Part shown: piece by piece, positions 7,367-17,167 of the stretch
Layout: the number at the start of each line of letters is the position of its first letter
Numbering within the stretch: the stretch's first letter is position 1
Origin: a virus
Direction: 5' to 3' (one strand)
Length of the DNA stretch: 22,213 bases
Virus record (IMG/VR): IMGVR_UViG_3300017788_000201
Span: 1 to 22,213 of that record
The notes under the pieces: model-generated
Told to the model about the DNA's origin: nothing
Databases searched by the model: none
The model's input: the letters and a program-made list of their open reading frames with translations, nothing else
Program-made: the position numbers and the translations under genes

Positions 7367-7418
7367 CCTAGGTAAGTTACCTAGGCCAGGCACCCCCCTG
7401 GTAGGTATTCTCCCTAAG
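7367..7418 (+). repeat. 52-bp three-hairpin element, copy 1
   Basis: First of twelve 52-bp elements. Hairpin A is TAGGTAAGTTACCTA (fully paired around the centre), hairpin B is CCAGGC...CCTGG, and hairpin C is TAGG...CCCTA. The centre has an altered loop (ACCCCC). It is followed by a GTGCCAA motif at 7461-7467 and an A-rich stretch. Confidence 0.85.
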
Positions 7419-7508
7419 AAGCCTACCTATACACACCTACTACTAACCCTAGCACATACCGTGCCAACATTGAACAAAAAAGAATAAAAATTACCCCATA
7501 AAAAAGAC

Positions 7509-7536
7509 TTGCGCTCTACTACCCATGCGCTACTAT
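7509..7536 (+). promoter_or_regulatory. Promoter for 7570
   Basis: TTGCGC (7509-7514), 16-bp spacer, TACTAT (7531-7536). The only sensible ATG is 33 bp further on, giving a leader of about 27 nt that is rich in A and C and lacks a ribosome site. Confidence 0.6.
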
Positions 7537-7569
7537 TCCCTTGTCAGACAACCTCACCCACACACTACT

Positions 7570-7758
7570 ATGTTCGCCTTTTCCCCTTCCGCCACCGAAA
7601 TGCACTCCTTCGCCGCCGAGTATGACGCCCACATGGACGCCATGCGTGACGCCTCTATCGAGGCTCAGGAACAGGATGAAGAATGGCTCGAAAGCTGGCA
7701 GCGTCCCGACTACGAGGAAAATCGGGTTTGCCGCAAAGAATACTTGCAAGATCGCTAA
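7570..7758 (+). CDS. Small acidic orphan protein (62 aa)
   Basis: A 62-residue acidic helical protein (EYDAHMDAMRDASIEAQEQDEEWLESWQ) with a basic C-terminus. No family is recognised. The in-frame ATG at 7525 lies inside the promoter, before the expected transcription start, so the ATG at 7570 is chosen. A second open frame over the same bases is proline-rich and looks like a shadow. Repeat copy 2 follows after 29 bp. Confidence 0.7.
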   Translation: MFAFSPSATEMHSFAAEYDAHMDAMRDASIEAQEQDEEWLESWQRPDYEENRVCRKEYLQDR

Positions 7759-7787
7759 GGCTCGCGCCTAACCCCATCCTCAAGCCT

Positions 7788-7839
7788 CCTAGGGAAAATA
7801 CCTAGGCCAGGCACGCAAACCGTAGGTAAATTACCTAAG
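7788..7839 (+). repeat. 52-bp three-hairpin element, copy 2
   Basis: Hairpin A CCTAGG...CCTAGG and hairpin C TAGGTAAATTACCTA are intact. The central hairpin B is degenerate (CCAGGCACGCAAACCG), the weakest of the set. The promoter for 7900 begins 25 bp later. Confidence 0.8.
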
Positions 7840-7864
7840 AGCGAAAAAAAGAATAAAAAATGAT

Positions 7865-7893
7865 TTGCACTCTCTGCGGGCCTCTGCTACTAT
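7865..7893 (+). promoter_or_regulatory. Leaderless-type promoter for 7900
   Basis: TTGCAC (7865-7870), 17-bp spacer, TACTAT (7888-7893), 6 bp to the ATG. Confidence 0.72.
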
Positions 7894-7899
7894 ACACAC

Positions 7900-8013
7900 A
7901 TGAGCGAGAACGACTTACAACTGGCAGAAACCGCATGGCCCAAAAAATTCTTCGCCTCCGAAGAGGCTTGGTTAGCTTATGTTAACAAATGGTTCCCGAA
8001 GATCACCAAGTAA
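7900..8013 (+). CDS. Mini-protein, W/PKITK family, copy 2 (37 aa)
   Basis: A 37-residue paralogue of the protein at 6949-7071. It has AWPKKFF, then EEAWLAYVNKWFPKITK; the last part matches copy 1 at W, AYV, KW and PKITK. Bases differ at many third positions while residues are kept, which points to selection on the peptide. The gene is alone between repeat copies 2 and 3 with its own promoter. Function unknown. Confidence 0.8.
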   Translation: MSENDLQLAETAWPKKFFASEEAWLAYVNKWFPKITK

Positions 8014-8017
8014 AATG

Positions 8018-8069
8018 CCTAGGTAAGTTACCTACCCCAGGCGTGCCTGGCCTAGGCAAAATCCCTAAG
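8018..8069 (+). repeat. 52-bp three-hairpin element, copy 3
   Basis: Hairpin A is CCTAGGTAAGTTACCTA, hairpin B is the perfect palindrome CCAGGC-GT-GCCTGG, and hairpin C is TAGGCAAAATCCCTA. It starts 4 bp after the stop of the mini-protein gene. Confidence 0.85.
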
Positions 8070-8113
8070 AACGAATCTGTCAAGTAAAAAAGCGAAAAAT
8101 CTTTTCTGCAAAG

Positions 8114-8135
8114 TTGGCACGCTAATTACTATAAT
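8114..8135 (+). promoter_or_regulatory. Conserved TTGGCACG-TAATTACTA element, copy 1
   Basis: TTGGCACGCTAATTACTATA closely matches stretches at 10964 and 11611. It includes a TATAAT (8130-8135) and resembles a sigma-54 site (TGGCACG, then TTACT) but lacks the -12 GC. It lies 53 bp upstream of the -35 box for 8201. Function unknown. Confidence 0.45.
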
Positions 8136-8166
8136 CTCGGCAGGTAAAAAAAGAACGAAAAAGAGT

Positions 8167-8194
8167 TTGCACCACGCCGAAATTCTGGCATAAT
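8167..8194 (+). promoter_or_regulatory. Leaderless-type promoter for 8201
   Basis: TTGCAC (8167-8172), 16-bp spacer, CATAAT (8189-8194), 6 bp to the ATG. Confidence 0.7.
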
Positions 8195-8200
8195 AGAAAC

Positions 8201-8479
8201 ATGAACGAAGCAATCCTCTCCAACGAACAAGTCGCCACCTTCCTTGCCATGACCACCACCAGCAAGCAGCAAGATCACGGCACCGTTCCTAGCGTTCTTG
8301 ACAACGTGCTCGGCTCCCTGAAAGTGGTGCGCTACGAAAACGAGAAGGGTATCTACTCCATCGAAGTCGAGCGTTACAAGGGCGTGCGCCTCTCCAAAAA
8401 GACGGGCAAGGAAATTGCCACCTTCGTCGCTAAGGATGGCTCCTATCGCTCCCTGTTCGTGGCACAGATTCAGTTCTAA
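8201..8479 (+). CDS. Small orphan protein (92 aa)
   Basis: A 92-residue protein of unknown function. Residues 1-35 are polar and helical; the rest alternates strands and turns (LKVVRYENEKGIYSIEVERYKGVRL, then KEIATFVAKDGSYRSLFVAQIQF), suggesting a small beta-rich fold. The start is fixed by the promoter 6 bp upstream. It is a single-gene unit between repeat copies 3 and 4. Confidence 0.78.
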   Translation: MNEAILSNEQVATFLAMTTTSKQQDHGTVPSVLDNVLGSLKVVRYENEKGIYSIEVERYKGVRLSKKTGKEIATFVAKDGSYRSLFVAQIQF

Positions 8480-8497
8480 GCAAATCACCTTAGCCAC

Positions 8498-8549
8498 CCT
8501 AGGAAATCTACCTAGGCTTGGCACGCCTGGCGTAGGTAAAATCCCTAAG
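8498..8549 (+). repeat. 52-bp three-hairpin element, copy 4
   Basis: Hairpin A is CCTAGG...CCTAGG with loop AAATCTA, hairpin B is altered on its left arm (CTTGGCACGCCTGG), and hairpin C is TAGGTAAAATCCCTA. Confidence 0.83.
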
Positions 8550-8600
8550 CATTCACTTGTCAAGTAAAAAGAATAAAAATTCATCACAGTAAAAAAGAAC

Positions 8601-8628
8601 TTGTGCGATCTTGTTTTTCTGCTACTAT
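8601..8628 (+). promoter_or_regulatory. Leaderless-type promoter for 8635
   Basis: TTGTGC (8601-8606), 16-bp spacer, TACTAT (8623-8628), 6 bp to the ATG at 8635. Confidence 0.68.
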
Positions 8629-8634
8629 TCCATC

Positions 8635-8856
8635 ATGAACCTAGCTGAATCTAATCGCGCCAAAGAACTCATCGCTCTTGACCTGAGCAAATTGGACAAG
8701 CGCACAATCAATGGCTTGCGTGCAGAACTAATCACACTCATTAACTGGTTCTATGTAACCCCCATCATCGAACTGCGTGTGCTTGGCGTGTTTGGCCTTC
8801 TGCAAGACATGATCAACAAACGCGATGAAATGCTTCAAATCTTGAAAAATCCATGA
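8635..8856 (+). CDS. Small helical orphan protein (73 aa)
   Basis: A 73-residue, Leu/Ile-rich helical protein (AKELIALDLSKLDKRTINGL, LITLINWFYVTPIIELRVLG, LLQDMINKRDEML). No family is recognised. The in-frame ATG at 8611 lies inside the promoter, so the one at 8635 is chosen. Its stop overlaps the start of the next gene by 4 bp (ATGA), making a two-gene, translationally coupled unit. Confidence 0.72.
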   Translation: MNLAESNRAKELIALDLSKLDKRTINGLRAELITLINWFYVTPIIELRVLGVFGLLQDMINKRDEMLQILKNP

Positions 8857-9146
8857 CCAAACAACAGCAAGTCCAAAACGCCGTCGAAACAGCGTTTGCC
8901 AAACACAGTAAGAGAATCGGTTCCCATTGGGAAAACGAGGAAGCGGTGACTTATAATGATGTCGAAGATTTCGCGCATGACATCATCGCCGCAATCTTCC
9001 CCGATTGGACACGCGAATGCTTGACAGAAGAAATCGCCGCGCTAGAGTCTAATCCTCGCACTCATCCCGCATTCAAACGCTTGCGCATTGACTACTTGAA
9101 AGCCCTGCTTGACAAACACAACACCATCCATCCTCCCTACTCATAA
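8853..9146 (+). CDS. Small orphan protein (97 aa)
   Basis: A 97-residue, mostly helical and mildly acidic protein (QNAVETAFAKHSKRIGSHW, DVEDFAHDIIAAIFPDW, ECLTEEIAALES, then a basic C-terminal helix). No recognised family. It overlaps the previous gene by 4 bp and lacks its own ribosome site, so it probably depends on termination-reinitiation. Confidence 0.72.
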   Translation: MTKQQQVQNAVETAFAKHSKRIGSHWENEEAVTYNDVEDFAHDIIAAIFPDWTRECLTEEIAALESNPRTHPAFKRLRIDYLKALLDKHNTIHPPYS

Positions 9147-9177
9147 ATACCTTGTTCGGCATTAACGATTTACGACT

Positions 9178-9588
9178 ATGAAACCAGAAGATGACCTAGA
9201 AAACCCAACGCCCCTTGATCTGCTGTTGCAGAATGACTCTCAACCTACGACATCATCGCCCTCTGAATTGGGAGCAGCACCTTGCTGTGCTTCTTCCGAG
9301 TCAGAATGGAAGCCCGACTACTCGGTAACGCCCCGCCGCATCGTGTGTGCCGCGATGCTTAAAGAAGGGCGAATCATCACGGGAGCACGGCACTACGATA
9401 AAGTCATGCGTGCGCAAATGGAGGCATCTGAGGGCATAGCGTGGTGGAGAGGATGCACGCAAGGATTCATTGACCAGTTTGGCGACTTTTTGAACCGCCG
9501 AGACGCATGGAAAGTGGCGGAGAAGCAAGGACAAATCCGCCGCGAAGTATCAACCCCAGGCACACTTTACAGCGAGAACCTGTATTAG
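9178..9588 (+). CDS. Conserved phage protein of unknown function (136 aa)
   Basis: A 136-residue protein. Residues 1-40 are a low-complexity polar leader. From about residue 50 it shows a pattern I associate with a conserved phage family: RRIVCAAM, IITGARHYDKVM, GCTQGFIDQFGDFLNRRDAW, and an ending GTLYSENLY. That family has no known function; conserved His, Asp and Trp residues could be functional. No clear ribosome site or well-spaced promoter precedes the ATG, so it is probably transcribed with 8635-9146. Repeat copy 5 follows. Confidence 0.78.
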   Translation: MKPEDDLENPTPLDLLLQNDSQPTTSSPSELGAAPCCASSESEWKPDYSVTPRRIVCAAMLKEGRIITGARHYDKVMRAQMEASEGIAWWRGCTQGFIDQFGDFLNRRDAWKVAEKQGQIRREVSTPGTLYSENLY

Positions 9589-9614
9589 CACAACGCCTCG
9601 GATTAGCCAGTGTT

Positions 9615-9666
9615 CCTAGGGAAACTACCTAGGCCTGGCCCGCCCCTGGTAGGTAAAATACCTAAG
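9615..9666 (+). repeat. 52-bp three-hairpin element, copy 5
   Basis: Hairpin A is CCTAGG...CCTAGG, hairpin B is CCTGGCCCGCCCCTGG (rearranged arms), and hairpin C is the perfect TAGGTAAAATACCTA. A TCCCTAGGGA palindrome lies about 35 bp further on, possibly a partial copy. Confidence 0.82.
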
Positions 9667-9745
9667 CGCCCGCCTTACTCACCCATCCGAAAAATCCCTA
9701 GGGAGGGCTATTTAATTCCTACCGCAAAAAAAAACGAATTACTGC

Positions 9746-9774
9746 TTGCACGCAAAGCAAAAATCGCCTATCTT
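9746..9774 (+). promoter_or_regulatory. Leaderless-type promoter for 9780
   Basis: TTGCAC (9746-9751), 17-bp spacer, TATCTT (9769-9774), 5 bp to the ATG. Confidence 0.7.
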
Positions 9775-9779
9775 GAATC

Positions 9780-9983
9780 ATGCAGCACTCCTTCGACACC
9801 GCTTCAAACCTTTTGATCAAAATCGCCGCTCATGATCGCCCTGCTAATATGACTCATGACATGCAAATGATCTATGGCCGCACCTACTTCAAGGGTATGC
9901 TTGCAAGCTTGATTGTGTGCGTGCCAGAAGTCAGAGACTACATCGAAAAAATCGCAAAATACCATGAAAATTCCCTCAATTAA
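9780..9983 (+). CDS. Small orphan protein (67 aa)
   Basis: A 67-residue helical protein with several Met and His (DTASNLLIKIAAHDRPANMTHDMQMIYGRTYFKGMLASLIVCV). No family is recognised; the hydrophobic part is too short and interrupted for a firm membrane call. It begins a three-gene unit (9780, 9995, 10122). Confidence 0.72.
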   Translation: MQHSFDTASNLLIKIAAHDRPANMTHDMQMIYGRTYFKGMLASLIVCVPEVRDYIEKIAKYHENSLN

Positions 9984-9994
9984 AAAGATTGAAT

Positions 9995-10129
9995 ATGATT
10001 CACGTTGGAACACTCTCTGATCGCGAACTGAAAAAATCAATTCGCAAAAAACTACCGCCGCCGCCACAAAAACACCGCAGCGCGAAAGACTACCGCCGTA
10101 ATCCTAAACACAAAAACAACGATGGATGA
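9995..10129 (+). CDS. Small basic protein (44 aa)
   Basis: A 44-residue, very basic peptide: an N-terminal helix (SDRELKKSIRKKL), a run of four prolines, then a Lys/Arg/His/Asn tail (KHRSAKDYRRNPKHKNN). It may bind nucleic acid. It starts 11 bp after the previous stop with only an A-rich stretch upstream, and overlaps the next gene by 8 bp. The tight packing and coherent composition support it; no homologue is recognised. Confidence 0.6.
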   Translation: MIHVGTLSDRELKKSIRKKLPPPPQKHRSAKDYRRNPKHKNNDG

Positions 10130-10304
10130 CTTTCGCAAAGAACAAAAGAAAAAATGCTTTGACGGCAGCAAAAACAAGCGCAGCAAATATGGTTGCCCCT
10201 GCTGCCGCGAGATTCGCAACCTGAACAAGCACAAGAAATTTTCCCGCAACATGGCCCGCGTTCGCTTGAAAGAAAAAGATAAAAAAGACTTGCGCGAAGA
10301 ATAA
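10122..10304 (+). CDS. Small basic Cys-containing protein (60 aa)
   Basis: A 60-residue, Lys/Arg-rich protein with a CPCC motif near the middle (YGCPCCREIRNLNKHKKF) and another Cys upstream, which could make a small metal site or nucleic-acid-binding peptide. It overlaps the previous gene by 8 bp. Its last codons (AAA GAC TTG CGC GAA GAA TAA) also form the -35 box and spacer of the next gene's promoter, a clear case of coding and control sharing bases. Confidence 0.7.
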   Translation: MDDFRKEQKKKCFDGSKNKRSKYGCPCCREIRNLNKHKKFSRNMARVRLKEKDKKDLREE

Positions 10305-10317
10305 AACCTGCTATCTT
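10290..10317 (+). promoter_or_regulatory. Leaderless-type promoter inside the end of 10122-10304
   Basis: TTGCGC (10290-10295), 16-bp spacer containing GAATAAAACC, TATCTT (10312-10317), 7 bp to the ATG at 10325. The -35 box is within the last codons of the gene before it. Confidence 0.72.
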
Positions 10318-10324
10318 ATCCATC

Positions 10325-10582
10325 ATGAATTATCCACAAGCTCTCACAATCTCAGAACTTAAGTCTTTGCTTGAACAAGCAGAAAAAGAAATCGGCGGCA
10401 ATTCTCTTGTTTACTTGTGGAACGGCGACAATAGCGAAGCGATTTGCGGTCACCAAAAAGACAACGCAGTTAAGAATATGGTTGCCACTGACGGAGAAAA
10501 AAAAGCTTTTGGGCTGGAAACTTTCAATGTTGATTGGATGTCTGACTCCAGCGGAAGTTGGATGAAAAAAGTGAACTCTTGA
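10325..10582 (+). CDS. Small orphan protein (85 aa)
   Basis: An 85-residue protein opening with a helical motif ALTISELKSLLEQAEKE, a form common in small phage proteins with a short HTH-like or helical start, then strands (SLVYLWNGD). The middle repeats polar Asp/Asn/Lys turns, and the end is WMSDSSGSWMKK. Function unknown. The start is fixed by the promoter 7 bp upstream. Confidence 0.75.
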   Translation: MNYPQALTISELKSLLEQAEKEIGGNSLVYLWNGDNSEAICGHQKDNAVKNMVATDGEKKAFGLETFNVDWMSDSSGSWMKKVNS

Positions 10583-10591
10583 AACTTTTCC

Positions 10592-10619
10592 TTGCACAAG
10601 GAATAAAACCTGCTAACTT
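10592..10619 (+). promoter_or_regulatory. Leaderless-type promoter for 10627
   Basis: TTGCAC (10592-10597), 16-bp spacer with GAATAAAACC, TAACTT (10614-10619), 7 bp to the ATG. The sequence from the spacer to the ATG nearly repeats that before 10325, suggesting the two promoters arose by duplication. Confidence 0.72.
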
Positions 10620-10626
10620 ATCCACC

Positions 10627-10794
10627 ATGACCACCATTGAAAAAACACTAATGCAACGTGACGGTTACACCCGCGAAGAAGCCCGCGAAGCCTTGCGCGA
10701 TGCCCGCCAGCGCGTTCTGGACGGCGAGAACCCCGAAGAAATTCTTTACGAGGATTTTGGGCTGGAGCCTGACTACATCTTTGACCTGATCTAA
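10627..10794 (+). CDS. Small acidic protein of a widespread mobile-element type (55 aa)
   Basis: A 55-residue, acidic, helical protein. The pattern MQRDGYTREEAREALRDARQ, then DGENPEEIL, then EDFGLEPDYIFDLI matches a small protein I know from phages and conjugative elements of diverse bacteria; its function is unknown. The longer in-frame start at 10558 lies inside the previous gene, so the ATG at 10627, 7 bp after the -10 box, is chosen. A cloverleaf-like structure and repeat copy 6 follow. Confidence 0.82.
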   Translation: MTTIEKTLMQRDGYTREEAREALRDARQRVLDGENPEEILYEDFGLEPDYIFDLI

Positions 10795-10806
10795 GACTTT
10801 TCCCTG

Positions 10807-10885
10807 CTAGGGGGACAGGAGGTTTAAGCCTCCTGTAGGAGGCTCCATCCTCCATCAAAGCTCTAAGAGCGGCGACTCCCCCTAG
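10807..10885 (+). ncRNA. Cloverleaf-like structured region
   Basis: An outer 9-bp stem pairs CTAGGGGGA (10807-10815) with TCCCCCTAG (10877-10885). Inside are three hairpins: CAGGAGG/CCTCCTG (10816-10822 with 10829-10835; its outermost A-T pair competes with the outer stem), GGAGG/CCTCC (10838-10842 with 10849-10853) and GCTC-TAA-GAGC (about 10860-10870). The result is a four-way junction of about 79 nt. It is not a tRNA: no anticodon or TTC loop is present. It may act as terminator, RNA-stability element or DNA cruciform. Its last bases overlap repeat copy 6. Confidence 0.5.
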
Positions 10886-10935
10886 TAGGGAACTTACCTA
10901 TGCCAGGCACGCCTGGCCTAGGCAAAATACCTAAG
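10884..10935 (+). repeat. 52-bp three-hairpin element, copy 6
   Basis: The left arm is changed (AGTAGGGAACTTACCTA), hairpin B is the perfect palindrome CCAGGC-AC-GCCTGG, and hairpin C is TAGGCAAAATACCTA. Element length is again 52 bp. Confidence 0.82.
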
Positions 10936-10963
10936 TAATAATCGCATCATTCTTTCACGCCAC

Positions 10964-10983
10964 TTGGCACGATAATTACTAGA
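10964..10983 (+). promoter_or_regulatory. Conserved TTGGCACG-TAATTACTA element, copy 2
   Basis: TTGGCACGATAATTACTAGA, 43 bp before the -35 box for 11041. Nearly identical to the copies at 8114 and 11611. Confidence 0.45.
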
Positions 10984-11006
10984 GTAAAAATTAGCTAAAA
11001 AACATC

Positions 11007-11034
11007 TTGCGCTTCTCTGTTTATCTGTTACCTT
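11007..11034 (+). promoter_or_regulatory. Leaderless-type promoter for 11041
   Basis: TTGCGC (11007-11012), 16-bp spacer, TACCTT (11029-11034), 6 bp to the ATG. Confidence 0.72.
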
Positions 11035-11040
11035 ACTCAC

Positions 11041-11241
11041 ATGAAAGAAACATACTACGGCTTCACGGGCAACGAACTCATCAACCTTGGCGAATATAAC
11101 AACATCAGCGAGGCTTTGTATGCCTCCATGTGTCATGATGCTAACCCTCGCGACTACCACTTCTTCTACATCACCAGCGCGGAGGGCTGGCAGTTTCTCG
11201 CCAACAAAATGCTCGACACTCTCAACACCAACAAACAATGA
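11041..11241 (+). CDS. Small orphan protein (66 aa)
   Basis: A 66-residue protein rich in Tyr, Phe and Asn (YYGFTGNELINLGEYNNISEALYASM, then YHFFYITSAEGWQFLANKM). It looks like a small alpha/beta fold; no family is recognised. It overlaps the next gene by 4 bp, forming a coupled two-gene unit between repeat copies 6 and 7. Confidence 0.75.
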   Translation: MKETYYGFTGNELINLGEYNNISEALYASMCHDANPRDYHFFYITSAEGWQFLANKMLDTLNTNKQ

Positions 11242-11468
11242 AAAACAACAACGCCATCCGCAAATTCAAAGTCGGCTCCCTGTATCGCAACAATGTTCAC
11301 CCGTCCTCTCTTTACATCTGCGTTGCAGACGTTGAGTGGCAAGGCGACAAAAAGAGCCGCTTCACCAAAAAATGCCTTGTGGTTCTGGAAGACCGTAGCC
11401 CTTCTAATTGCAAAGGTCACATTGTCGCTTCCAATGCCGTGAAAAATTGGAACTGGCGCGAAGTCTGA
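11238..11468 (+). CDS. Small basic beta-rich orphan protein (76 aa)
   Basis: A 76-residue basic protein with a barrel-like pattern: KFKVGSLYRNN, SLYICVADVEW, KKCLVVLED, HIVASNAVKNWNW. The opening resembles small beta-barrel phage proteins that begin with a 'F-x-V-G-x-x-Y' strand, but I cannot assign a family. It starts within the stop of the previous gene (ATGA) and is followed by a strong GC-rich hairpin. Confidence 0.73.
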   Translation: MKNNNAIRKFKVGSLYRNNVHPSSLYICVADVEWQGDKKSRFTKKCLVVLEDRSPSNCKGHIVASNAVKNWNWREV

Positions 11469-11483
11469 TCGTCAATGACTTAC

Positions 11484-11509
11484 GGAGGGGGTGGGCATCC
11501 ACCCCCTCC
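11484..11509 (+). terminator. GC-rich terminator-like hairpin after 11238-11468
   Basis: An 11-bp perfect stem GGAGGGGGTGG / CCACCCCCTCC with loop GCAT. No T-run follows on this strand, so it may end transcription poorly or serve to stabilise the 3' end. Confidence 0.6.
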
Positions 11510-11518
11510 CTAGGGCCG

Positions 11519-11570
11519 CGTAGGAGAAATACCTACGCCAGGCGTGCCTGGGCTAGGTAAAACACCTAGG
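11519..11570 (+). repeat. 52-bp three-hairpin element, copy 7
   Basis: Hairpin A reads CGTAGG...CCTACG instead of CCTAGG...CCTAGG: both arms have changed together, keeping the pairing. Hairpin B is the perfect CCAGGC-GT-GCCTGG and hairpin C is TAGGTAAAACACCTA. Confidence 0.86.
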
Positions 11571-11610
11571 AAAACCCTTTAGCGCGATTTTTGTCACGAT
11601 TGGCACAATG

Positions 11611-11630
11611 TTGGCACGATAATTACTAGA
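11611..11630 (+). promoter_or_regulatory. Conserved TTGGCACG-TAATTACTA element, copy 3
   Basis: TTGGCACGATAATTACTAGA, preceded 11 bp earlier by a second TTGGCAC (11600-11606). It lies about 42 bp before a promoter-like pair (TTGCAA 11654-11659, 16 bp, TAATTT 11676-11681). Confidence 0.45.
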
Positions 11631-11640
11631 ATAAAAAATA

Positions 11641-11772
11641 GTGAAGAAAAAAGTTGCAAAGCTCGCGGAAAGTGGTAATTTAAGGGGTCGCAAGATTCTA
11701 GACTCTCTTGCTTCTAATGAATCGCTCATCTTGGTTGGAGTTAGCTTTAATTATGCTTCGGTGAAAGCCTGA
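11641..11772 (+). CDS. Possible small protein with GTG start (43 aa), or an RNA unit
   Basis: An open frame from GTG at 11641 to TGA at 11770 would encode a 43-residue basic-start peptide (KKKVAKLAESGNLRGRKIL, then LASNESLILVGVSFNYASVKA) of plausible composition. Against this, a promoter-like pair (TTGCAA 11654-11659, TAATTT 11676-11681) lies inside it. That pair would start an RNA near 11687 containing the hairpin GCAAGA/TCTTGC (11691-11696 with 11707-11712). Either a short gene or a non-coding RNA occupies this stretch; an open frame of this length can also arise by chance. Confidence 0.3.
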   Translation: MKKKVAKLAESGNLRGRKILDSLASNESLILVGVSFNYASVKA

Positions 11773-11814
11773 GCAAGCTGCGGTGGAATCCCGAATCTCA
11801 ACTGACATTTTCTC

Positions 11815-11842
11815 TTGACTTCTCTCCTTTCTCGCTTATCTT
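11815..11842 (+). promoter_or_regulatory. Promoter for 11867
   Basis: TTGACT (11815-11820), 16-bp spacer, TATCTT (11837-11842). The ATG is 24 bp further on, giving a leader of about 18 nt rich in A and C (CACCAAGAAAAACATC) without a ribosome site. Confidence 0.68.
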
Positions 11843-11866
11843 TACCCCATCACCAAGAAAAACATC

Positions 11867-12151: not shown

Positions 12152-12168
12152 GAATTTCCCGAAACCTT

Positions 12169-12255
12169 GAAGGGAGACGGCAATCGGAGAATGCCTTGTG
12201 ATTTTCGCTGACGAGCGTTCTGAACAACTAGCAGGTTCAAACCCTGCCCCCTTCA
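12169..12255 (+). tRNA. tRNA-like RNA 1, atypical anticodon arm
   Basis: Acceptor arms GAAGGGA / CCCCTTC pair at six of seven positions. The D-arm is GGC-GCC with GG in the loop (12179-12195). The T-arm is canonical: GCAGG-TTCAAAC-CCTGC. The 35 nt between the D- and T-arms fit a class II tRNA (Leu/Ser/Tyr type) in length. The best anticodon stem, TGTGA/TGACG, has a mismatch and a G-U pair, around loop TTTTCGC (formal anticodon UUC). A competing hairpin CGCT-GACG-AGCG also forms. The discriminator is A and CCA is not encoded. It may be an unusual tRNA, a decayed one, or a tRNA mimic. Confidence 0.5.
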
Positions 12256-12287
12256 CTTCTTTCATTTAAAACAATAAAAAACAATTT

Positions 12288-12389
12288 GAGCGCGTGGCGG
12301 AACGCAAAGACGCAATGAGGCCCGATACCTAGTAGCGAGCCAAGGGCAGTCAGACTAGGAAACTGCAAGTTCAAATCTTGCCGCGCTCA
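12288..12389 (+). tRNA. tRNA-like RNA 2, enlarged central region
   Basis: The acceptor stem is perfect over 7 bp (GAGCGCG / CGCGCTC). The T-arm is canonical, GCAAG-TTCAAAT-CTTGC. The D-arm is GCG/CGC and the 5' part (GTGGCGGAA...AGACGC) resembles Leu/Ser tRNAs but lacks the GG of the D-loop. About 51 nt lie between the D- and T-arms, more than a class II tRNA needs. They can form an arm CCTAGT/ACTAGG (12328-12333 with 12354-12359), or a mismatched anticodon-like stem TGAGG/CCTAG with loop CCCGATA. CCA is not encoded. The ends are clearly tRNA-like; decoding is doubtful. Confidence 0.5.
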
Positions 12390-12415
12390 TCCCATTTCAA
12401 CCTGAAACACACACT

Positions 12416-12787
12416 ATGAGAGTCCGACTCAAAAACCTCGGCGGCTACATTGACTACCAAGGAACCGTCACGGGTCTTGCGTTTCAAGAAACAGCCACCC
12501 TTCCGTCGTCAAAAGCGGCATTAGCCGTTCCGCGTTCAAAAGAATCATGGGTGCATGTGAAATGGGACATTCCCCACCATCCATGCACTTCGCCCATCCA
12601 GTTGAAGCATTTGATACCGCTTGAGATTGGCGAACTGATCGGACAACCAAAGGACAAACCGACTTCACCCCTAGCCCTCCGCTTGGCCCACATTCTCGAT
12701 CATCACATCACAGGGAATCAGCTTGTCGAAGGCGTTCACGCTCTCTTTGTGGACATTCAAAAAGCAATCATCGAATTCAAACCCTAA
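12416..12787 (+). CDS. Orphan protein (123 aa)
   Basis: A 123-residue protein. Residues 1-75 are strand-rich (RVRLKNLGGYIDYQGTVTGLAF, then WVHVKWDIPHHPCTSPIQLKHLIPL), resembling a small beta-barrel domain in which a Trp-x-x-Val-x-Trp strand is followed by a 'HLIPLE' strand. The rest is helical (LALRLAHILDHHITGNQLVEGVHALFVDIQKAI). No family is assigned. The ATG follows an A/C-rich stretch (CCTGAAACACACACT) without a ribosome site, 27 bp after the second tRNA-like RNA; it may share that transcript. Confidence 0.73.
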   Translation: MRVRLKNLGGYIDYQGTVTGLAFQETATLPSSKAALAVPRSKESWVHVKWDIPHHPCTSPIQLKHLIPLEIGELIGQPKDKPTSPLALRLAHILDHHITGNQLVEGVHALFVDIQKAIIEFKP

Positions 12788-12794
12788 TCACACT

Positions 12795-13067
12795 ATGCAG
12801 CGCAGCGAATCCAGCACAACTCAAGTCAACGCCTCTTTGCGTTACTGTCACGAAAACGCCGTGAACATCTTCGGCCCCGTGCGTGAAATCAAGCGGGCAT
12901 GCATCAACAAAATGCGCAACGTCGGCCCACTCAAGAACGTGCCGCAAGAACCAAAAATCGTCCGCCCCTTGGGCATCCGCATCACAGAGAACGTCAAAAA
13001 GCATTCGGCAAAATACAAATCACGCGCCAAAGAACTCGCGCAAAGTTTCCTTCGCTGGCGTGCGTAG
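12795..13067 (+). CDS. Basic orphan protein (90 aa)
   Basis: A 90-residue basic protein with an ordered central region (ASLRYCHENAVNIFGPVREIKRACINKM), then a Pro/Lys-rich linker and a helical basic end (AKYKSRAKELAQSFLRWRA). No family is recognised; nucleic-acid binding is possible from charge. The ATG at 12795, 7 bp after the previous stop, is preferred to the in-frame ATG at 12723 inside the upstream gene. A long GC-rich hairpin and repeat copy 8 follow. Confidence 0.7.
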   Translation: MQRSESSTTQVNASLRYCHENAVNIFGPVREIKRACINKMRNVGPLKNVPQEPKIVRPLGIRITENVKKHSAKYKSRAKELAQSFLRWRA

Positions 13068-13082
13068 GTTAGTTGGGTAACG

Positions 13083-13121
13083 GGGGGAGAGGGGTTTCAG
13101 TAGTGTGTTCCTCTCTCCCCC
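13083..13121 (+). terminator. Long GC-rich hairpin after 12795-13067
   Basis: A 12-bp stem with one G-U pair: GGGGGAGAGGGG (13083-13094) with CCTCTCTCCCCC (13110-13121), loop of 15 nt. No T-run follows. Its last bases overlap repeat copy 8. Confidence 0.6.
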
Positions 13122-13171
13122 TAAGACTTTTACCTACGCCAGGCGTGCCCTGGCTAGGTAATTTCCCTAAG
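13120..13171 (+). repeat. 52-bp three-hairpin element, copy 8
   Basis: Hairpin A is partly changed (CCTAAGACTTTTACCTACG), hairpin B is CCAGGC-GTG-CCCTGG, and hairpin C is TAGGTAATTTCCCTA. The promoter for 13258 follows. Confidence 0.82.
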
Positions 13172-13223
13172 AGAAAAAAAACACACAAAAAAGTCTTATC
13201 CAGCATAATGCTCAATTTTAATC

Positions 13224-13251
13224 TTGACAATCCCACAAATCCAAGTAAACT
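13224..13251 (+). promoter_or_regulatory. Leaderless-type promoter for 13258
   Basis: A perfect TTGACA (13224-13229), 16-bp spacer, TAAACT (13246-13251), 6 bp to the ATG. Confidence 0.72.
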
Positions 13252-13257
13252 ACCACC

Positions 13258-13632
13258 ATGAACGTCACCATCACCTTCACCAAAGAACAATTCCTCGAAC
13301 TGCTGGTCAAGTCCCCTATCGTGCGCGAGTGGGCCTATAACACCATTCTTCCCCTCCAAACGGAGAACAACGAACTTGCCATTCTCCAGCACTATGCGGA
13401 CGAAATGAACAAACAGTTCCCCGATGCCGACCGCAACAAAGTCCCCGCAATCAAGTGGTTGCGTGCCGCCGTGCGCGATGAGGCGCACTTGAAGGTGTTC
13501 GGGAAGTTTGGTTTCTCGTCTTACCCCTCCGATGTGAACACGGAGGGTCACTCGATCAACAACGGTTGTCTTACGCTCGTTGGCGCGAAGCAATTCGTGG
13601 AAAAGTTCTGCACCCCAAAACCTTCCGTGTAA
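13258..13632 (+). CDS. Orphan protein (124 aa)
   Basis: A 124-residue protein that starts with a strand and helix (VTITFTKEQFLELLVKSPIVREWAYNTILP), continues helical (ELAILQHYADEMNKQFPDADRNKVPAIKWLRAAV) and ends with a loop-rich region and a helix (GAKQFVEKFC). It has the look of a small phage enzyme modulator or DNA-binding protein, but I recognise no family. It is a single-gene unit between copies 8 and 9. Confidence 0.76.
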   Translation: MNVTITFTKEQFLELLVKSPIVREWAYNTILPLQTENNELAILQHYADEMNKQFPDADRNKVPAIKWLRAAVRDEAHLKVFGKFGFSSYPSDVNTEGHSINNGCLTLVGAKQFVEKFCTPKPSV

Positions 13633-13643
13633 TCAACGCTTGC

Positions 13644-13695
13644 CCTAGGTGAAATACCTAGGCCAGGCATGCCCTGGGTAGGTAAAATCCCTATG
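13644..13695 (+). repeat. 52-bp three-hairpin element, copy 9
   Basis: Hairpin A is CCTAGGT-GAAAT-ACCTAGG (7 bp perfect), hairpin B is CCAGGC-ATG-CCCTGG, and hairpin C is TAGGTAAAATCCCTA. A GTGCCAA motif lies at 13731-13737. Confidence 0.86.
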
Positions 13696-13777
13696 CCCGC
13701 GTAGGGAAAAGTCTTAGGGTAGCATAAAGCGTGCCAACTCGCGCAGAATAAAAATTGCATAAAAATGCCTTTCGCCC

Positions 13778-13805
13778 TTGACTCTCTGCCGTTCTGTGAT
13801 ACAGT
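13778..13805 (+). promoter_or_regulatory. Promoter for 13815
   Basis: TTGACT (13778-13783), 16-bp spacer, TACAGT (13800-13805), 9 bp to the ATG. Confidence 0.65.
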
Positions 13806-13814
13806 TATCGCGCT

Positions 13815-14060
13815 ATGAAGAAACAAACACAAGCCATTGATGTGCTGGTTAACCTCGTTGACTGGCTGATGAATAACGACCGTGAAACCCTCGCGCCCGC
13901 TTTCGCCGCTCTGAAAATTGACGCGGAAACGGTGTTTGCTGCTTTTGACCACGCTTACGGCGAGGAAGAAAGCGAAGATGACAACGACGGGCATCTGGTC
14001 TCGCGAGCGCGTGCAAATCAAGAATTGCGCCTGATGGGAGTTGACATTGACGGAGAATAA
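13815..14060 (+). CDS. Small acidic orphan protein (81 aa)
   Basis: An 81-residue protein: helical start (QAIDVLVNLVDWLMNNDRETLAPAFAALKIDAETVFAAFDHAYG), then a run of Glu/Asp (EEESEDDNDGH), then a short helix. No family is recognised; strong negative charge in the linker could mimic nucleic acid. Its last codons (TTG ACA TTG ACG GAG) contain the -35 box for the next gene. Confidence 0.74.
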   Translation: MKKQTQAIDVLVNLVDWLMNNDRETLAPAFAALKIDAETVFAAFDHAYGEEESEDDNDGHLVSRARANQELRLMGVDIDGE

Positions 14061-14068
14061 GCTATCTT
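14041..14068 (+). promoter_or_regulatory. Leaderless-type promoter inside the end of 13815-14060
   Basis: TTGACA (14041-14046) lies in the last codons of the previous gene. A 16-bp spacer leads to TATCTT (14063-14068), then 5 bp to the ATG at 14074. Confidence 0.72.
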
Positions 14069-14073
14069 GTGCC

Positions 14074-14706
14074 ATGACTCCAAAACTTGCCAAAGAACTT
14101 ACTGGCGGACTTTCTAAGCCGTCGAAAATGCCTGGTTTTGCCTACTCCATCCCTGCGGAGGAATGCAAAGTCGGCTCTAAATTGCGAAAGGTCAAAGGCT
14201 CCATTTGTGAAAAGTGTTACGCTCTCAAAGGGCGTTACGTTTTCTCAAATGTGAAAAATGCCTTGCGCAAGCGGTTTGACAGCCTACTGAATGCCGAGTG
14301 GGTGGCGGCTATGGCTTTTCAAATCTCGCAAGCCAGCGTGAACGTTTTCCGCTGGCATGATAGCGGCGACCTGCAAAGCGTCGAGCACTTGGAACGCATC
14401 GCGGAAGTTTGCCGCCTAACCCCTGACGTTCGCCATTGGTTGCCTACTCGCGAATACGGCATGGTTACAGAATACAAGGCGCGGCATGGGGAATTTCCCG
14501 ACAACCTGAATGTGCGTCTCTCTGCTTACTCGATAGACGGGCCGCTGCCCGAAGGGGCCGCGAATCGCTTAGGAGTTACCCTGTCTGGCGTTACTCGCGA
14601 CATGAGCAAGGTCACATGTCCCGCCTATCAGCAGGGCGGCGTATGTGGTTCATGCCGAGCATGTTGGAGCAAAGAACAAAAAGCCGTAATCTATCCCGCA
14701 CACTAA
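14074..14706 (+). CDS. GP88-like Cys-rich phage protein (210 aa)
   Basis: A 210-residue protein resembling the phage 'gene product 88' family, whose function is unknown. Visible signatures: KMPGFAYSIPAEECKVGSKL, CEKC at about 45-48, FRWHDSGDLQSVEHL in the centre, and a C-terminal Cys cluster C-x8-C-x2-C-x2-C (about 182-197). The Cys-rich ends suggest a metal or iron-sulphur site, and the layout has a passing similarity to radical-SAM-like proteins, but no CxxxCxxC radical-SAM motif is seen. The TTG-started longer frame at 14041 is rejected because the promoter places transcription at 14074. It is the second largest gene of the array. Confidence 0.75.
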   Translation: MTPKLAKELTGGLSKPSKMPGFAYSIPAEECKVGSKLRKVKGSICEKCYALKGRYVFSNVKNALRKRFDSLLNAEWVAAMAFQISQASVNVFRWHDSGDLQSVEHLERIAEVCRLTPDVRHWLPTREYGMVTEYKARHGEFPDNLNVRLSAYSIDGPLPEGAANRLGVTLSGVTRDMSKVTCPAYQQGGVCGSCRACWSKEQKAVIYPAH

Positions 14707-14723
14707 CCCTAAACCTTTCTCCT

Positions 14724-14780
14724 ATGCTTGCATTCGTGTTTCTGGTTGCGGTGGTTGCTCTCCTTAGCAGACATCGCTAG
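14724..14780 (+). CDS. Possible hydrophobic micropeptide (18 aa)
   Basis: A very short open frame from ATG 14724 to TAG 14778 encodes a hydrophobic segment (MLAFVFLVAVVALL) and a basic end (SRHR), like a single-pass membrane micropeptide. It has no clear ribosome site or promoter and is 17 bp after the GP88-like gene. Composition alone supports it, so confidence is low. Confidence 0.25.
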   Translation: MLAFVFLVAVVALLSRHR

Positions 14781-14793
14781 GTCATAGCCCTAC

Positions 14794-14822
14794 GGGAGGG
14801 GGCGCGAAAACCGCCCCTTCCC
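14794..14822 (+). terminator. GC-rich hairpin after the GP88-like gene
   Basis: An 11-bp stem with one G-U pair: GGGAGGGGGCG (14794-14804) with CGCCCCTTCCC (14812-14822), loop CGAAAAC. No T-run follows; repeat copy 10 begins 12 bp later. Confidence 0.6.
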
Positions 14823-14834
14823 CTAGGAAACCTC

Positions 14835-14886
14835 CCTAAGAAAATTACCTAGGCCAGGCGTGCCCTGGGTAGGTAAAACACCTAAG
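14835..14886 (+). repeat. 52-bp three-hairpin element, copy 10
   Basis: Left arm CCTAAGAAAATTACCTAGG, hairpin B CCAGGC-GTG-CCCTGG, hairpin C TAGGTAAAACACCTA. An extra CCTAGG at 14822 precedes it, as if a partial copy abuts. A GTGCCAA motif lies at 14915-14921. Confidence 0.85.
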
Positions 14887-14970
14887 AAAATCCCCTATAC
14901 CCTAAGCAAGTGCCGTGCCAAGTCATGCAGGAATCGAAAAAAGAAAAATGCGCGTGAAGGTGAAAAGATG

Positions 14971-14998
14971 TTGCTTTTTGTTTTTCCTCGGCTATCTT
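14971..14998 (+). promoter_or_regulatory. Promoter for the DUF932 gene
   Basis: TTGCTT (14971-14976), 16-bp spacer, TATCTT (14993-14998). The ATG is 44 bp further on, giving a leader of about 38 nt made mostly of A and C, without a ribosome site. Confidence 0.68.
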
Positions 14999-15042
14999 TA
15001 GCACGTTAACAGAAACAACAAACCAATAGAACACACACCACT

Positions 15043-15822
15043 ATGTCACTCCTGATTGCCAAGAATAAAGTCTCCTTCGATGAACTCAAAGGCACGAAAA
15101 CCCCTGACGGCACCGATAGCTTCCAGCCCATCGGTCACGCCCTCTTGGTGGATGAAACCCGTCAAGCCATCGAGCGTGCTGGCTACACCGTCAAGGAAGA
15201 GGAACACGCGCTCGCTCGCATGGGCCAGCGTTACTTCGGCGGCTTCGTCATCACTGGCAAGAACATTGATGCGACTGATCGCCAGCTTGTGCTTGGCCTT
15301 CGTAACGCGCACGACAAGTCCTTCGCCGCTTCGGTCTGTATCGGCAACCGCATGATCGTCTGCGAAAACCTCTGCTTCGCCAGCGACATTAAGCTCTCCC
15401 GCAAGCACACAACTAACATCCTGCGCGACATCCCCCGCGTGCTGAGTGAAGCGGTGGGCCGTCTCGTCTCGCACTTTACGGACATGCAGGCTCGCATTGA
15501 TCGCTACAAAAACCACGAACTGTCGCTCGACGCTGCCGCTGGTCTGGTCATCCAGCTTGCGGATGGCAAGGCCATTCCCGCTCGCGAGGTCTATCCTGTG
15601 ATCGAGCAGTTCCGCACCCCGAACCACCCCGAATTCGAGGGCCGCACTCTCTGGTCACTCTACAACGGCGTGACTGAGTGCCTGAAAGGTGGCGACCTTT
15701 CCAAGCTGCCCGCCCGCACGATGGTCATGCAGTCCATCTTTGACGGTCTGGCGGGTCACTCGCCCATCATCGAAGTGGAAGTGGTGGACGCTGCCGACCT
15801 GAACGACGACAGCGCGGAATAA
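15043..15822 (+). CDS. DUF932 phage/plasmid-like protein (259 aa)
   Basis: A 259-residue protein of the DUF932 / phage-plasmid-like family, whose biochemical role is unknown; members occur in phages, plasmids and beside repair or anti-restriction genes. Recognisable parts: an N-terminal strand-rich region (PIGHALLVDETRQAIERAGY), the core (GGFVITGKNIDATDRQLVLGLRNAHDKSFAASVCIGNRMIVCENLCFASD) with the family-typical 'R.S.D.S......G..V.VC.N....' order, then a long helical C-terminal half. Strong biased codon use and its own promoter with an A/C-rich leader suggest high expression. It is the largest gene of the array and is followed by a good terminator. Confidence 0.82.
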   Translation: MSLLIAKNKVSFDELKGTKTPDGTDSFQPIGHALLVDETRQAIERAGYTVKEEEHALARMGQRYFGGFVITGKNIDATDRQLVLGLRNAHDKSFAASVCIGNRMIVCENLCFASDIKLSRKHTTNILRDIPRVLSEAVGRLVSHFTDMQARIDRYKNHELSLDAAAGLVIQLADGKAIPAREVYPVIEQFRTPNHPEFEGRTLWSLYNGVTECLKGGDLSKLPARTMVMQSIFDGLAGHSPIIEVEVVDAADLNDDSAE

Positions 15823-15839
15823 GTAAGCGAGACTCCTAC

Positions 15840-15865
15840 GGGGGCGGGAAACCGCCCCCTTTCTT
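15840..15865 (+). terminator. Intrinsic terminator after the DUF932 gene
   Basis: A perfect 8-bp stem GGGGGCGG / CCGCCCCC with a GAAA tetraloop, followed by TTTCTT. This is the best intrinsic terminator of the array. Confidence 0.8.
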
Positions 15866-15875
15866 ATGCCTTCTC

Positions 15876-15927
15876 CCTAGGGAATTTACCTAGGCCAGGC
15901 GTGCCCTGGCTAGGTAAAACACCTAAG
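15876..15927 (+). repeat. 52-bp three-hairpin element, copy 11
   Basis: Hairpin A is CCTAGG...CCTAGG with TAGGGAATTTACCTA, hairpin B is CCAGGC-GTG-CCCTGG, and hairpin C is TAGGTAAAACACCTA. Close to the consensus. Confidence 0.87.
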
Positions 15928-15950
15928 CATAAAAAGAGAATAAAAAAGAC

Positions 15951-15978
15951 TTGCGCCACATCAAATCTCTGCTACCTT
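15951..15978 (+). promoter_or_regulatory. Leaderless-type promoter for 15985
   Basis: TTGCGC (15951-15956), 16-bp spacer, TACCTT (15973-15978), 6 bp to the ATG; preceded by GAATAAAAAAGAC. Confidence 0.74.
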
Positions 15979-15984
15979 TACAGC

Positions 15985-16155
15985 ATGAACAAGAAATTCA
16001 GTGTTTGGTTTGAAACCCGCAGTTACAACGCAATCGGCAGTTACACTTCGCGGGAAGTGACAGTCGAGGCGGCGGACGAAGATGCTGCCTATGAAGCTGC
16101 AATGAACTACTTCCACAGCATCAACTTGGAAACCCCGCTTTCCCATCAAATGTAA
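15985..16155 (+). CDS. Small orphan protein (56 aa)
   Basis: A 56-residue protein with a strand-strand-helix pattern (KKFSVWFETRSYNAIGSY, SREVTVEAADEDAAYEAAMNYFHS), a form seen in many tiny phage proteins that resemble half of a beta-alpha fold. No family is assigned. The start is fixed by the promoter 6 bp upstream; the longer frame beginning at 15901 runs through repeat copy 11 and is rejected. First of a unit with 16165. Confidence 0.75.
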   Translation: MNKKFSVWFETRSYNAIGSYTSREVTVEAADEDAAYEAAMNYFHSINLETPLSHQM

Positions 16156-16160
16156 GGAGG
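16154..16160 (+). promoter_or_regulatory. Strong Shine-Dalgarno site for 16165
   Basis: AAGGAGG ends 4 bp before the ATG at 16165 and overlaps the stop of the upstream gene. It is the only strong site of this kind in the array and belongs to an internal operon gene, in contrast to the leaderless first genes. Confidence 0.8.
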
Positions 16161-16164
16161 TAGC

Positions 16165-16428
16165 ATGAACGAATCCACGCACAACCCCATGTCGTTTACT
16201 AACCTCTTTCTGCTTCATGAAGTGCTGGTGGCGGCTAATACCCCTTGGGCGAAAACCAACTTCTGTCCGACAGATCGAATGATTCAGGCGTGCGAGTTGA
16301 AAGACTGTCGCTACTTTCGTGAAAACTCTTTGTGTGGCGTGGTTCATTGCGGCGACGAATTCTTCGCCGTCACCTGTACAAACGATGAATGGGTGAAAGC
16401 AGATGAAGTATCTGTTGACCCGTGGTAA
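16165..16428 (+). CDS. Small Cys-containing orphan protein (87 aa)
   Basis: An 87-residue protein with five cysteines spread over the second half (FCPTD, ACELKDCRYF, NSLCGVVHC, VTC), which might bind metal. N-terminal part helical (FTNLFLLHEVLVAANTPW). No family is recognised. Translation is supported by the strong ribosome site 4 bp upstream. Its last codons hold the promoter of the next gene. Confidence 0.78.
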   Translation: MNESTHNPMSFTNLFLLHEVLVAANTPWAKTNFCPTDRMIQACELKDCRYFRENSLCGVVHCGDEFFAVTCTNDEWVKADEVSVDPW

Positions 16429-16442
16429 TTGTCTGCTACCTT
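16415..16442 (+). promoter_or_regulatory. Leaderless-type promoter inside the end of 16165-16428
   Basis: TTGACC (16415-16420) lies in the Val-Asp-Pro codons at the end of the previous gene. A 16-bp spacer leads to TACCTT (16437-16442), then 6 bp to the ATG at 16449. Confidence 0.72.
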
Positions 16443-16448
16443 TCCATC

Positions 16449-16739
16449 ATGAACACACTACTCGAAACCCTTCTCAACGGCGGCTACATCAGCCCCCAAT
16501 TCGTCAACAACTACGAAAAAGTGTTCCCTAATCTGACGGTCACAATCAAATGGTGTGACTCCATGAGAGAGACGACCACTCTTGGCAGCGTCAATGAATG
16601 TATGAAACAGGGCGCGAAACGCGGCGATTGTGTGCGCGAGGCTTTCATTCCCGCTTTTTGTCACGCCGCACTTTGCAAAGCTTTCGGCATCACTGACGAA
16701 GATCAGGCGAAATACTATCAAGACAATCCCACCATCTAA
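16449..16739 (+). CDS. Small orphan protein (96 aa)
   Basis: A 96-residue, mainly helical protein with four cysteines (KWCDSM, NECMKQGAKRGDCVREAF, CHAALCKAFG). The Gly-Gly-Tyr-Ile-Ser-Pro-Gln-Phe start suggests a capped helix. No family is recognised. The in-frame codon at 16422 precedes the transcription start and is rejected. It is followed 4 bp later by the next gene. Confidence 0.75.
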   Translation: MNTLLETLLNGGYISPQFVNNYEKVFPNLTVTIKWCDSMRETTTLGSVNECMKQGAKRGDCVREAFIPAFCHAALCKAFGITDEDQAKYYQDNPTI

Positions 16740-16743
16740 CACC

Positions 16744-17103
16744 ATGAACCGAGTCCGAGTCTATCGAAACCTCCATAAGAAATGCCTTTCTGTGCTTCAT
16801 CGCACGCCGAAGGGCTGGCGTCTCCTGAAACATGTGCCGCGCTTGGAACTTCTGAACGTTGTGTTCAAGGTGTCGCAGGCTGGCCGCGAACGTGTCGTGC
16901 GCGAGAAGCGGAAGAATGTTCATGCGTTTGTCGAAGGCGACGACTGTGGCGTGACCAACATCACAAGCAGCAATCTCCGCTTCATCGGCTACAACCCCTA
17001 TGTGGCGGGCGAATTCCGCGACAAGGAAACCCAAAAGCCAGCACGCGAGGCATCGTGGGCCTTCATCAACGAAAAAGGAATCACTGCCATCAACGTCTTG
17101 TGA
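16744..17103 (+). CDS. Conserved phage protein of unknown function (119 aa)
   Basis: A 119-residue basic protein. VRVYRNLHKKCLSVL at the start and GRERVVREKRKNVHAFVEG in the middle match a pattern I associate with a conserved phage family of unknown function; the basic central strand region may bind nucleic acid. The ATG at 16744 follows a CATCTAACACC stretch 4 bp after the previous stop, without a ribosome site. It is the last gene of the rightward array, and repeat copy 12 starts 12 bp later. Confidence 0.78.
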   Translation: MNRVRVYRNLHKKCLSVLHRTPKGWRLLKHVPRLELLNVVFKVSQAGRERVVREKRKNVHAFVEGDDCGVTNITSSNLRFIGYNPYVAGEFRDKETQKPAREASWAFINEKGITAINVL

Positions 17104-17115
17104 GTAGTGCTTGCG

Positions 17116-17167
17116 CTTAGGTGAAACACCTAGGCCAGGCGTGCCCTGGCTAGGTAAAATCCCTAGT
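17116..17167 (+). repeat. 52-bp three-hairpin element, copy 12
   Basis: Hairpin A is CTTAGGTG-AAA-CACCTAGG: the T-G and TG/CA changes keep pairing. Hairpin B is CCAGGC-GTG-CCCTGG and hairpin C is TAGGTAAAATCCCTA. It marks the end of the array. Confidence 0.86.

Follow-up and report, generated by a model that had tools for sequence, protein, structure and literature searches.

A rigidly spaced double-palindrome element between operons of uncultured phages, a candidate protein-bound DNA site

Intergenic gaps in a group of uncultured phages carry a repeated element whose core is TAGG-N7-CCTA, a spacer and a second TAGG-N7-CCTA. The element has a rigid two-site design and lineage-specific spacing. 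With a confidence evenly balanced against doubt, we take it to be a DNA site specific to these phages, a double palindrome that lies at operon 3' ends and is bound by a putative protein. Each copy would present two inverted 15-bp TAGG-N7-CCTA palindromes at a fixed distance, flanking a looser GC palindrome.

The analysis was performed on a 22.2-kb linear virus fragment from IMG/VR (the window, meaning the whole stretch at its full length). The original prediction had placed 12 indel-free 52-bp copies of an element with three hairpins (A, B and C) in its plus-strand gene array. An alignment of 52 columns contained zero gaps in 12/12 copies, and a scan of the window with a 20-position consensus gave a score of at least 18 at exactly these 12 places and no further copies. 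In 300 Markov shuffles no score of at least 18 was reached, the maximum being 15. All copies lie on the plus strand between plus-strand genes, and the minus-strand blocks of the window contain none, as had been predicted. Copies 1 to 6 occupy 7367..7418 (core 7369-7416), 7788..7839 (core 7790-7837), 8018..8069 (core 8020-8067), 8498..8549 (core 8500-8547), 9615..9666 (core 9617-9664) and 10884..10935 (core 10886-10933). Copies 7 to 12 occupy 11519..11570 (core 11521-11568), 13120..13171 (core 13122-13169), 13644..13695 (core 13646-13693), 14835..14886 (core 14837-14884), 15876..15927 (core 15878-15925) and 17116..17167 (core 17118-17165). An extra TAGG-N7-CCTA 15-mer, read from the sequence, overlaps copy 10 (14824..14838). 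Hairpin B, which had been described as invariable, is not constant: copy 2 (CCAGGCACGCAAACCG) has lost it, in copies 4 and 5 it is weakened, and in copy 1 its loop is six bases long.

Related contigs were reached via window proteins (a DUF932-like gene and a clamp loader), and more were obtained by a pattern scan of IMG/VR that permitted spacers of 15 to 20; the matches listed had spacers of 17 or 18. The element was found in nine further uncultured phage contigs, which together with the window gives 68 copies, 59 of them distinct. No exact match to the pattern was detected in 84,980 bacterial and archaeal genomes, a set outside which the host may lie. The array region of the window had no nucleotide match among 50,697 phage records; in the phage database, a single element copy gave no good match and the proteins had distant relatives only. 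In the collections searched, the element is restricted to this phage group. The search of other genomes proposed with the original prediction has thus yielded nine more contigs and no bacterial match, and the element is neither private to one genome nor free of constraint. G009, at 91.6 kb the largest contig, carries genes for DNA polymerase III alpha, ribonucleotide reductase and lambda-like tail proteins. It also encodes a pair of sigma-70 region 2 domain proteins, and the window encodes one protein with this domain. The element is missing from G009 outside its array. Because neither an integrase nor a repressor was seen among the G009 protein families listed, its life style is likely to be lytic. 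Terminase relatives were found in two metagenome-assembled genomes, whose bins were assigned to Flavobacteriaceae and Verrucomicrobiales respectively; since the bins disagree, these relatives do not settle the host.

In the left 15-mer the first TA and the ACCTA are invariant in 59/59 distinct copies; the right 15-mer is equally fixed (59/59) at its TAG, at the A in position 6 and at its final TA. The remaining core letters differ in a few copies; the third left position does so most often and reads A in 10/59. Conservation is stronger in the right 15-mer (8.1 bits) than in the left (6.3 bits), and the site is therefore not a perfect dyad. The spacer measures 17 bp in 55/56 copies outside the window; the exception, a copy of G008, has 18 bp, as do 12/12 window copies, so that the outer palindromes are 32 bp apart, centre to centre, in sister phages and 33 bp apart in the window. 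Mostly the spacer contains a CCAGG..CCTGG palindrome centred on the element. Its arms slide, and the palindrome is broken in some copies, for example window copy 2; the distance between A and C is rigid even where hairpin B slides or is lost. The central bases switch between C and G in orthologues, and the element arms have diverged despite the rigid length. Lone TAGG-N7-CCTA sites outside the elements numbered 26 in the arrays, compared with 0 to 6 sites for other spacings; about 5 of the 26 resemble tRNA T-loops by eye. None was present in the non-array remainder of the window or of G009. As the lone sites are enriched only in arrays, we read TAGG-N7-CCTA as a DNA-level unit that is used singly and as a fixed pair.

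The element comes after the last gene of an operon. Within an upstream gene family the stop codon lies at a conserved distance from it: 10 bp in most contigs for g7, 54-59 bp for g4 and 51-58 bp for the DUF932-like gene. The spacing to the following ATG, by contrast, is variable. Often the stop codon is just 7-60 nt away with no intervening terminator. At 12/55 boundaries a hairpin with a T-tail lies 5' of the element, which there sits between terminator and promoter. At copy 11, for example, an intrinsic terminator (15840..15859, plus strand) separates the DUF932-like gene from the element, and a putative promoter, TTGCGC..TACCTT (15951..15985, plus strand; consensus by eye), follows directly before the next ATG. 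The conserved core holds no promoter; promoters and terminators are separate neighbours. Copy 12 lies 3' of the last array gene and faces a minus-strand tRNA-Arg and the clamp loader, with neither an array gene nor an array promoter downstream of it. No T-tract (U-tract in RNA) directly follows the element, and runs of four T occur within 30 nt in just 8 of the cases listed; the element itself was accordingly not classed as an intrinsic terminator, which is a GC hairpin with a direct T-tract. The operon-end position, the boundaries with a preceding terminator, the setting of copy 12 and the missing U-tract together suggest a boundary or insulator role.

At five boundaries that are common to the window and other contigs by upstream gene family, the window copy measures 48 bp and every counterpart 47. 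Arm similarity among window copies (0.63) equals that to copies from other genomes (0.63), which argues against recent homogenisation as the source of the common length. The simplest inference from these comparisons is that the spacing was altered in concert, without visible homogenisation, under a trans-acting factor that would require one spacing. Alternatively, the uniform spacing could stem from an earlier spread of the 18-bp version within the window lineage.

The original prediction had taken constant length and paired changes as signs of selection on structure. The length constraint holds, but the structural part was largely lost on comparison with other genomes. It would be unlikely, on the evidence below, that the copies act as an RNA element that folds in the 3' region of mRNA and whose hairpins protect or process transcripts. 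The frequent closeness to stop codons without a terminator between would fit such a role, as would the paired changes in window copies 7 and 12, where pairing is indeed kept. However, the outer stems are nearly invariant or vary by mismatch in 46 ungapped copies; at the two outermost A pairs, 4 double changes stood against 38 unpaired cells in these 46 aligned copies from other genomes. RNAalifold reported not one base pair with a compensated change. The alternation of ACCTA and CCCTA in hairpin C, formerly counted as a paired change, sits at the loop edge. Covariation is confined to the central stem, where it exceeds that in shuffles and is partly due to two registers of the sliding CCAGG/CCTGG arms. 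With compensatory change nearly nil in the outer helices and present in the central stem, the element was not assigned to the structured RNA elements; nor was it assigned to a known RNA family, as no Rfam covariance model hit the elements, with E values up to 1 allowed.

The three hairpins are better described as two inverted copies of one site (A and C) around a variable centre. The left loop matched the reverse complement of the right loop with 5.1 bits, and the right loop itself with −0.8 bits. Loops that are reverse complementary fit inverted DNA sites rather than two hairpins read by one RNA-binding protein. In folding, the sense strand (−21.8 kcal/mol) was less stable than the antisense strand (−24.2 kcal/mol), and the coding strand gave the weaker fold in 45/59 copies, which are related, so that a P value would not be independent. 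The rigid distance between A and C, kept while B slides or disappears, and the boundaries at which a terminator precedes the element also speak against a transcript function. One nested dyad, overlooked in the original prediction, can be formed from the same TAGG and CCTA words, as a long hairpin with outer TAGG/CCTA, middle TACCTA/TAGGTA and inner CCAGG/CCTGG pairs. It was rejected: arms within an element mirrored each other less well than arms permuted within genomes did (11.14 mirror matches observed versus 11.58, with 0/5,000 permutations as low), and pairs outside the invariant core lacked covariation. The three-hairpin RNA reading is thus mostly unsupported and has mostly been set aside, with an RNA role possible for the central stem. 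Among the roles named in the original prediction (RNA processing or stability element, protein-binding palindrome, recombination site), the protein-binding palindrome fits best.

Paired NtrC enhancer sites are two palindromes about three helical turns apart, and the element likewise has two palindromes at such a separation, 32 bp being similar to that of the paired NtrC sites at glnA. We consider it improbable that the element acts as an enhancer-like activator site, in the manner of NtrC sites, with its two palindromes switching on sigma54-like promoters (TTGGCAYG-N4-TTGC-like) nearby. TTGGCAYG is found 30-89 bp past many elements in either orientation, and some −24/−12 pairs are near consensus, for example TTGGCACGGCACTTGC at 14914 on the minus strand. 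However, roughly half of the window elements lack a TTGGCAYG nearby, the −12 part is poor at several sites (TTAC), and no phage sigma54 activator was seen in the window or among the G009 families listed. The element differs from the NtrC sites in sequence, has no known activator here, and is tied to gene 3' ends, its position tracking the upstream gene and not the next start.

A site for recombination or cassette shuffling, by which operons move as element-bounded units, was judged improbable to the same degree. Operon order does vary from contig to contig, as the g6-g2 block can precede or follow g3-g4; many block borders carry elements, and at one window boundary the upstream side of the element matches G011 and the downstream side G001/G006. 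But changes of order at operon borders would be expected in any case, and insertions between close relatives fall inside operons and not at elements. No site-specific recombinase was noticed, and homologous recombination needs no rigid 17/18-bp spacer. Still more doubtful is a selfish or mutation-driven palindromic repeat, maintained by copying and not by function. The many palindromic intergenic copies would agree with it, and so would the C/G flips of central bases in orthologues, as from template switching at palindromes. It is opposed by the occupation of the same gene-family boundaries in diverged genomes, the length that is rigid while arms diverged, the confinement to one genome region and the fact that the pattern used matched none of the bacterial genomes searched. 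An integron-like cassette site was rejected, as genes seem to have their own promoters and the insertions of close relatives lie away from elements, and so was a REP-like host repeat, for which 84,980 genomes held no exact-pattern match, with the host possibly outside that set.

The element was further compared with known repeated phage elements. Stoperators, the sites of the L5 repressor in cluster A mycobacteriophages, occur in many intergenic copies and are proposed to stop transcription elongation; they are asymmetric, 13 bp long and bound by a monomeric repressor in temperate phages (PMC9283540). The element resembles them in its many copies per phage genome, its place in short intergenic gaps and its fixed orientation to transcription, the 12 window copies sharing one orientation that rests on a modest left-right asymmetry. 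It differs in being two inverted 15-bp palindromes at fixed spacing instead of one 13-bp asymmetric site. Furthermore, stoperators serve repressors of temperate phages, whereas no repressor is among the G009 families listed and this related genome looks lytic. The element may work in part like stoperators, yet it does not belong to the stoperator family. By the account in PMC4503421, which cites Arbiol 2010 and Comeau 2014, the promoter early stem-loops (PeSLs) of T4-like phages combine an early promoter with a terminator-like stem-loop. As far as that account extends, PeSLs are like the element in being composite conserved intergenic modules amid small shuffling genes, and the two are unlike in that the conserved part of the element is not a promoter, is not an intrinsic terminator and is built of two rigidly spaced sites. 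Of PeSL-like shuffling, a differing operon order between contigs was seen, with the insertions of close relatives inside operons. Extended start-associated sequences (ESAS) of cluster K mycobacteriophages lie just upstream of start codons and consist of 17-bp repeats with a variable spacer (PMC3203893). They too are a repeated phage intergenic element with imperfect inverted repeats near many genes, but the element described here is anchored to stop codons and has a fixed spacer.

Similar modules were present in more distant phages. A relaxed search for paired TAGG-N7-CCTA sites met for the most part with isolated chance matches; among the matches listed there was one new multi-copy contig, G014. 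G014 is a distant relative (two large proteins are about 39% identical) and carries 17 modules of the type TAGGGGATTCCCCTA-N21-TAGGGGATTCCCCTA soon after stop codons, with one extra copy having N22. These modules contain perfect palindromes in the same architecture at a centre distance of 36 bp. Contigs G002-G005 have proteins in common with the window group and other intergenic modules, with a CCAGGG-N4-CCCTGG palindrome. From both sets, repeated intergenic modules with lineage-specific sites are common in the wider group.

The proposal of a protein-bound double-palindrome site is built on the anatomy, the rigidity, the array enrichment of single 15-mers, the position after stop codons, the confinement to this phage group among the collections searched and the near-absent outer covariation, and the repetition of the architecture in G014 with perfect palindromes and N21 was counted in its favour. 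Counted against it were the covariation of the central palindrome, the unequal conservation of the two 15-mers (right over left) and the G014 centre distance, which is not a whole number of helical turns. A putative trans-acting protein would bind both palindromes as one complex and so fix their spacing. As the spacing is lineage-specific, the binder is probably phage-encoded; a search of the window and of the G009 protein families listed turned up the sigma-70 region 2 proteins but no protein with a link to the element. Less confidently, the complex, placed between a gene end and the next promoter, might serve as a transcription insulator or roadblock, a mode that would be functionally like the stoperators of mycobacteriophage L5. 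More tentatively, the element could be a two-site ruler: a phage protein complex would dock on two palindromes an exact distance apart where nearly every operon of the accessory region ends, and isolate neighbours, and a change in its reach would shift all sites (32, 33 or 36 bp between centres).

Phages pack many small genes of unknown function under separate promoters, and the element bears on how transcription units are kept apart. The one-bp shift in spacing at every site of one lineage, in copies that are otherwise unlike, is a natural experiment on the co-evolution of a complex and its sites. The element also provides a search pattern for this uncultured phage group and a handle toward its regulator.

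Six of the 12 elements in the window were followed by a TTGGCACG site 30-47 bp downstream. Both orientations were represented, with sites at positions 7460, 13730 and 14914 on the minus strand and at 8114, 10964 and 11611 on the plus strand, and several of them resemble sigma54 -24/-12 promoters in sequence. In the distant relative G014, an array of 17 modules of the TAGGGGATTCCCCTA-N21-TAGGGGATTCCCCTA type was located at positions 12001-23732 (locus L161), where TTGAC[AT] was present 23-25 bp past each module, followed by TGTTACACC. The intergenic modules of the related phages G002-G005 (loci L037-L050) consisted of a GC hairpin, CCAGGG-N4-CCCTGG and GTCAA..CTATTACG, and often included a terminator. 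The L5 stoperator consensus also contains TGTCAAG.

C<->G flips were observed at the central spacer bases in the counterpart elements of four other uncultured phage contigs, G001, G006, G012 and G013 (GGCCAAGCCCCCTGGCA versus GGCCAGGGGGTCTGGCA). Template switching at the palindromes would yield flips of this kind. A structured-looking stretch, CTAGGGGGA...TCCCCCTAG, was located at window positions 10804-10883, in the gap that separates a stop codon from copy 6, and clear relatives of it were found in the contigs G011 and G013.

The window encodes tRNA-Glu at 12169-12256. For a second tRNA-like stretch after it (12290-12390), no tRNA was called by ARAGORN. A conserved 350-aa protein of unknown family is encoded on the minus strand (1515-2564), with an ERCC4 nuclease on one side and a sigma-like protein on the other. 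No convincing match was obtained for it in a Pfam search; by eye, it appeared helix-turn-helix-like in sequence.

Promoter-like TTGCG-N17-TAYNNT sites were located at 8613-8641, 15963-15991 and 16427-16455, along with similar ones. Because these sites stop only a few bases short of the ATG, their placement suggests leaderless mRNAs for the window genes behind them.
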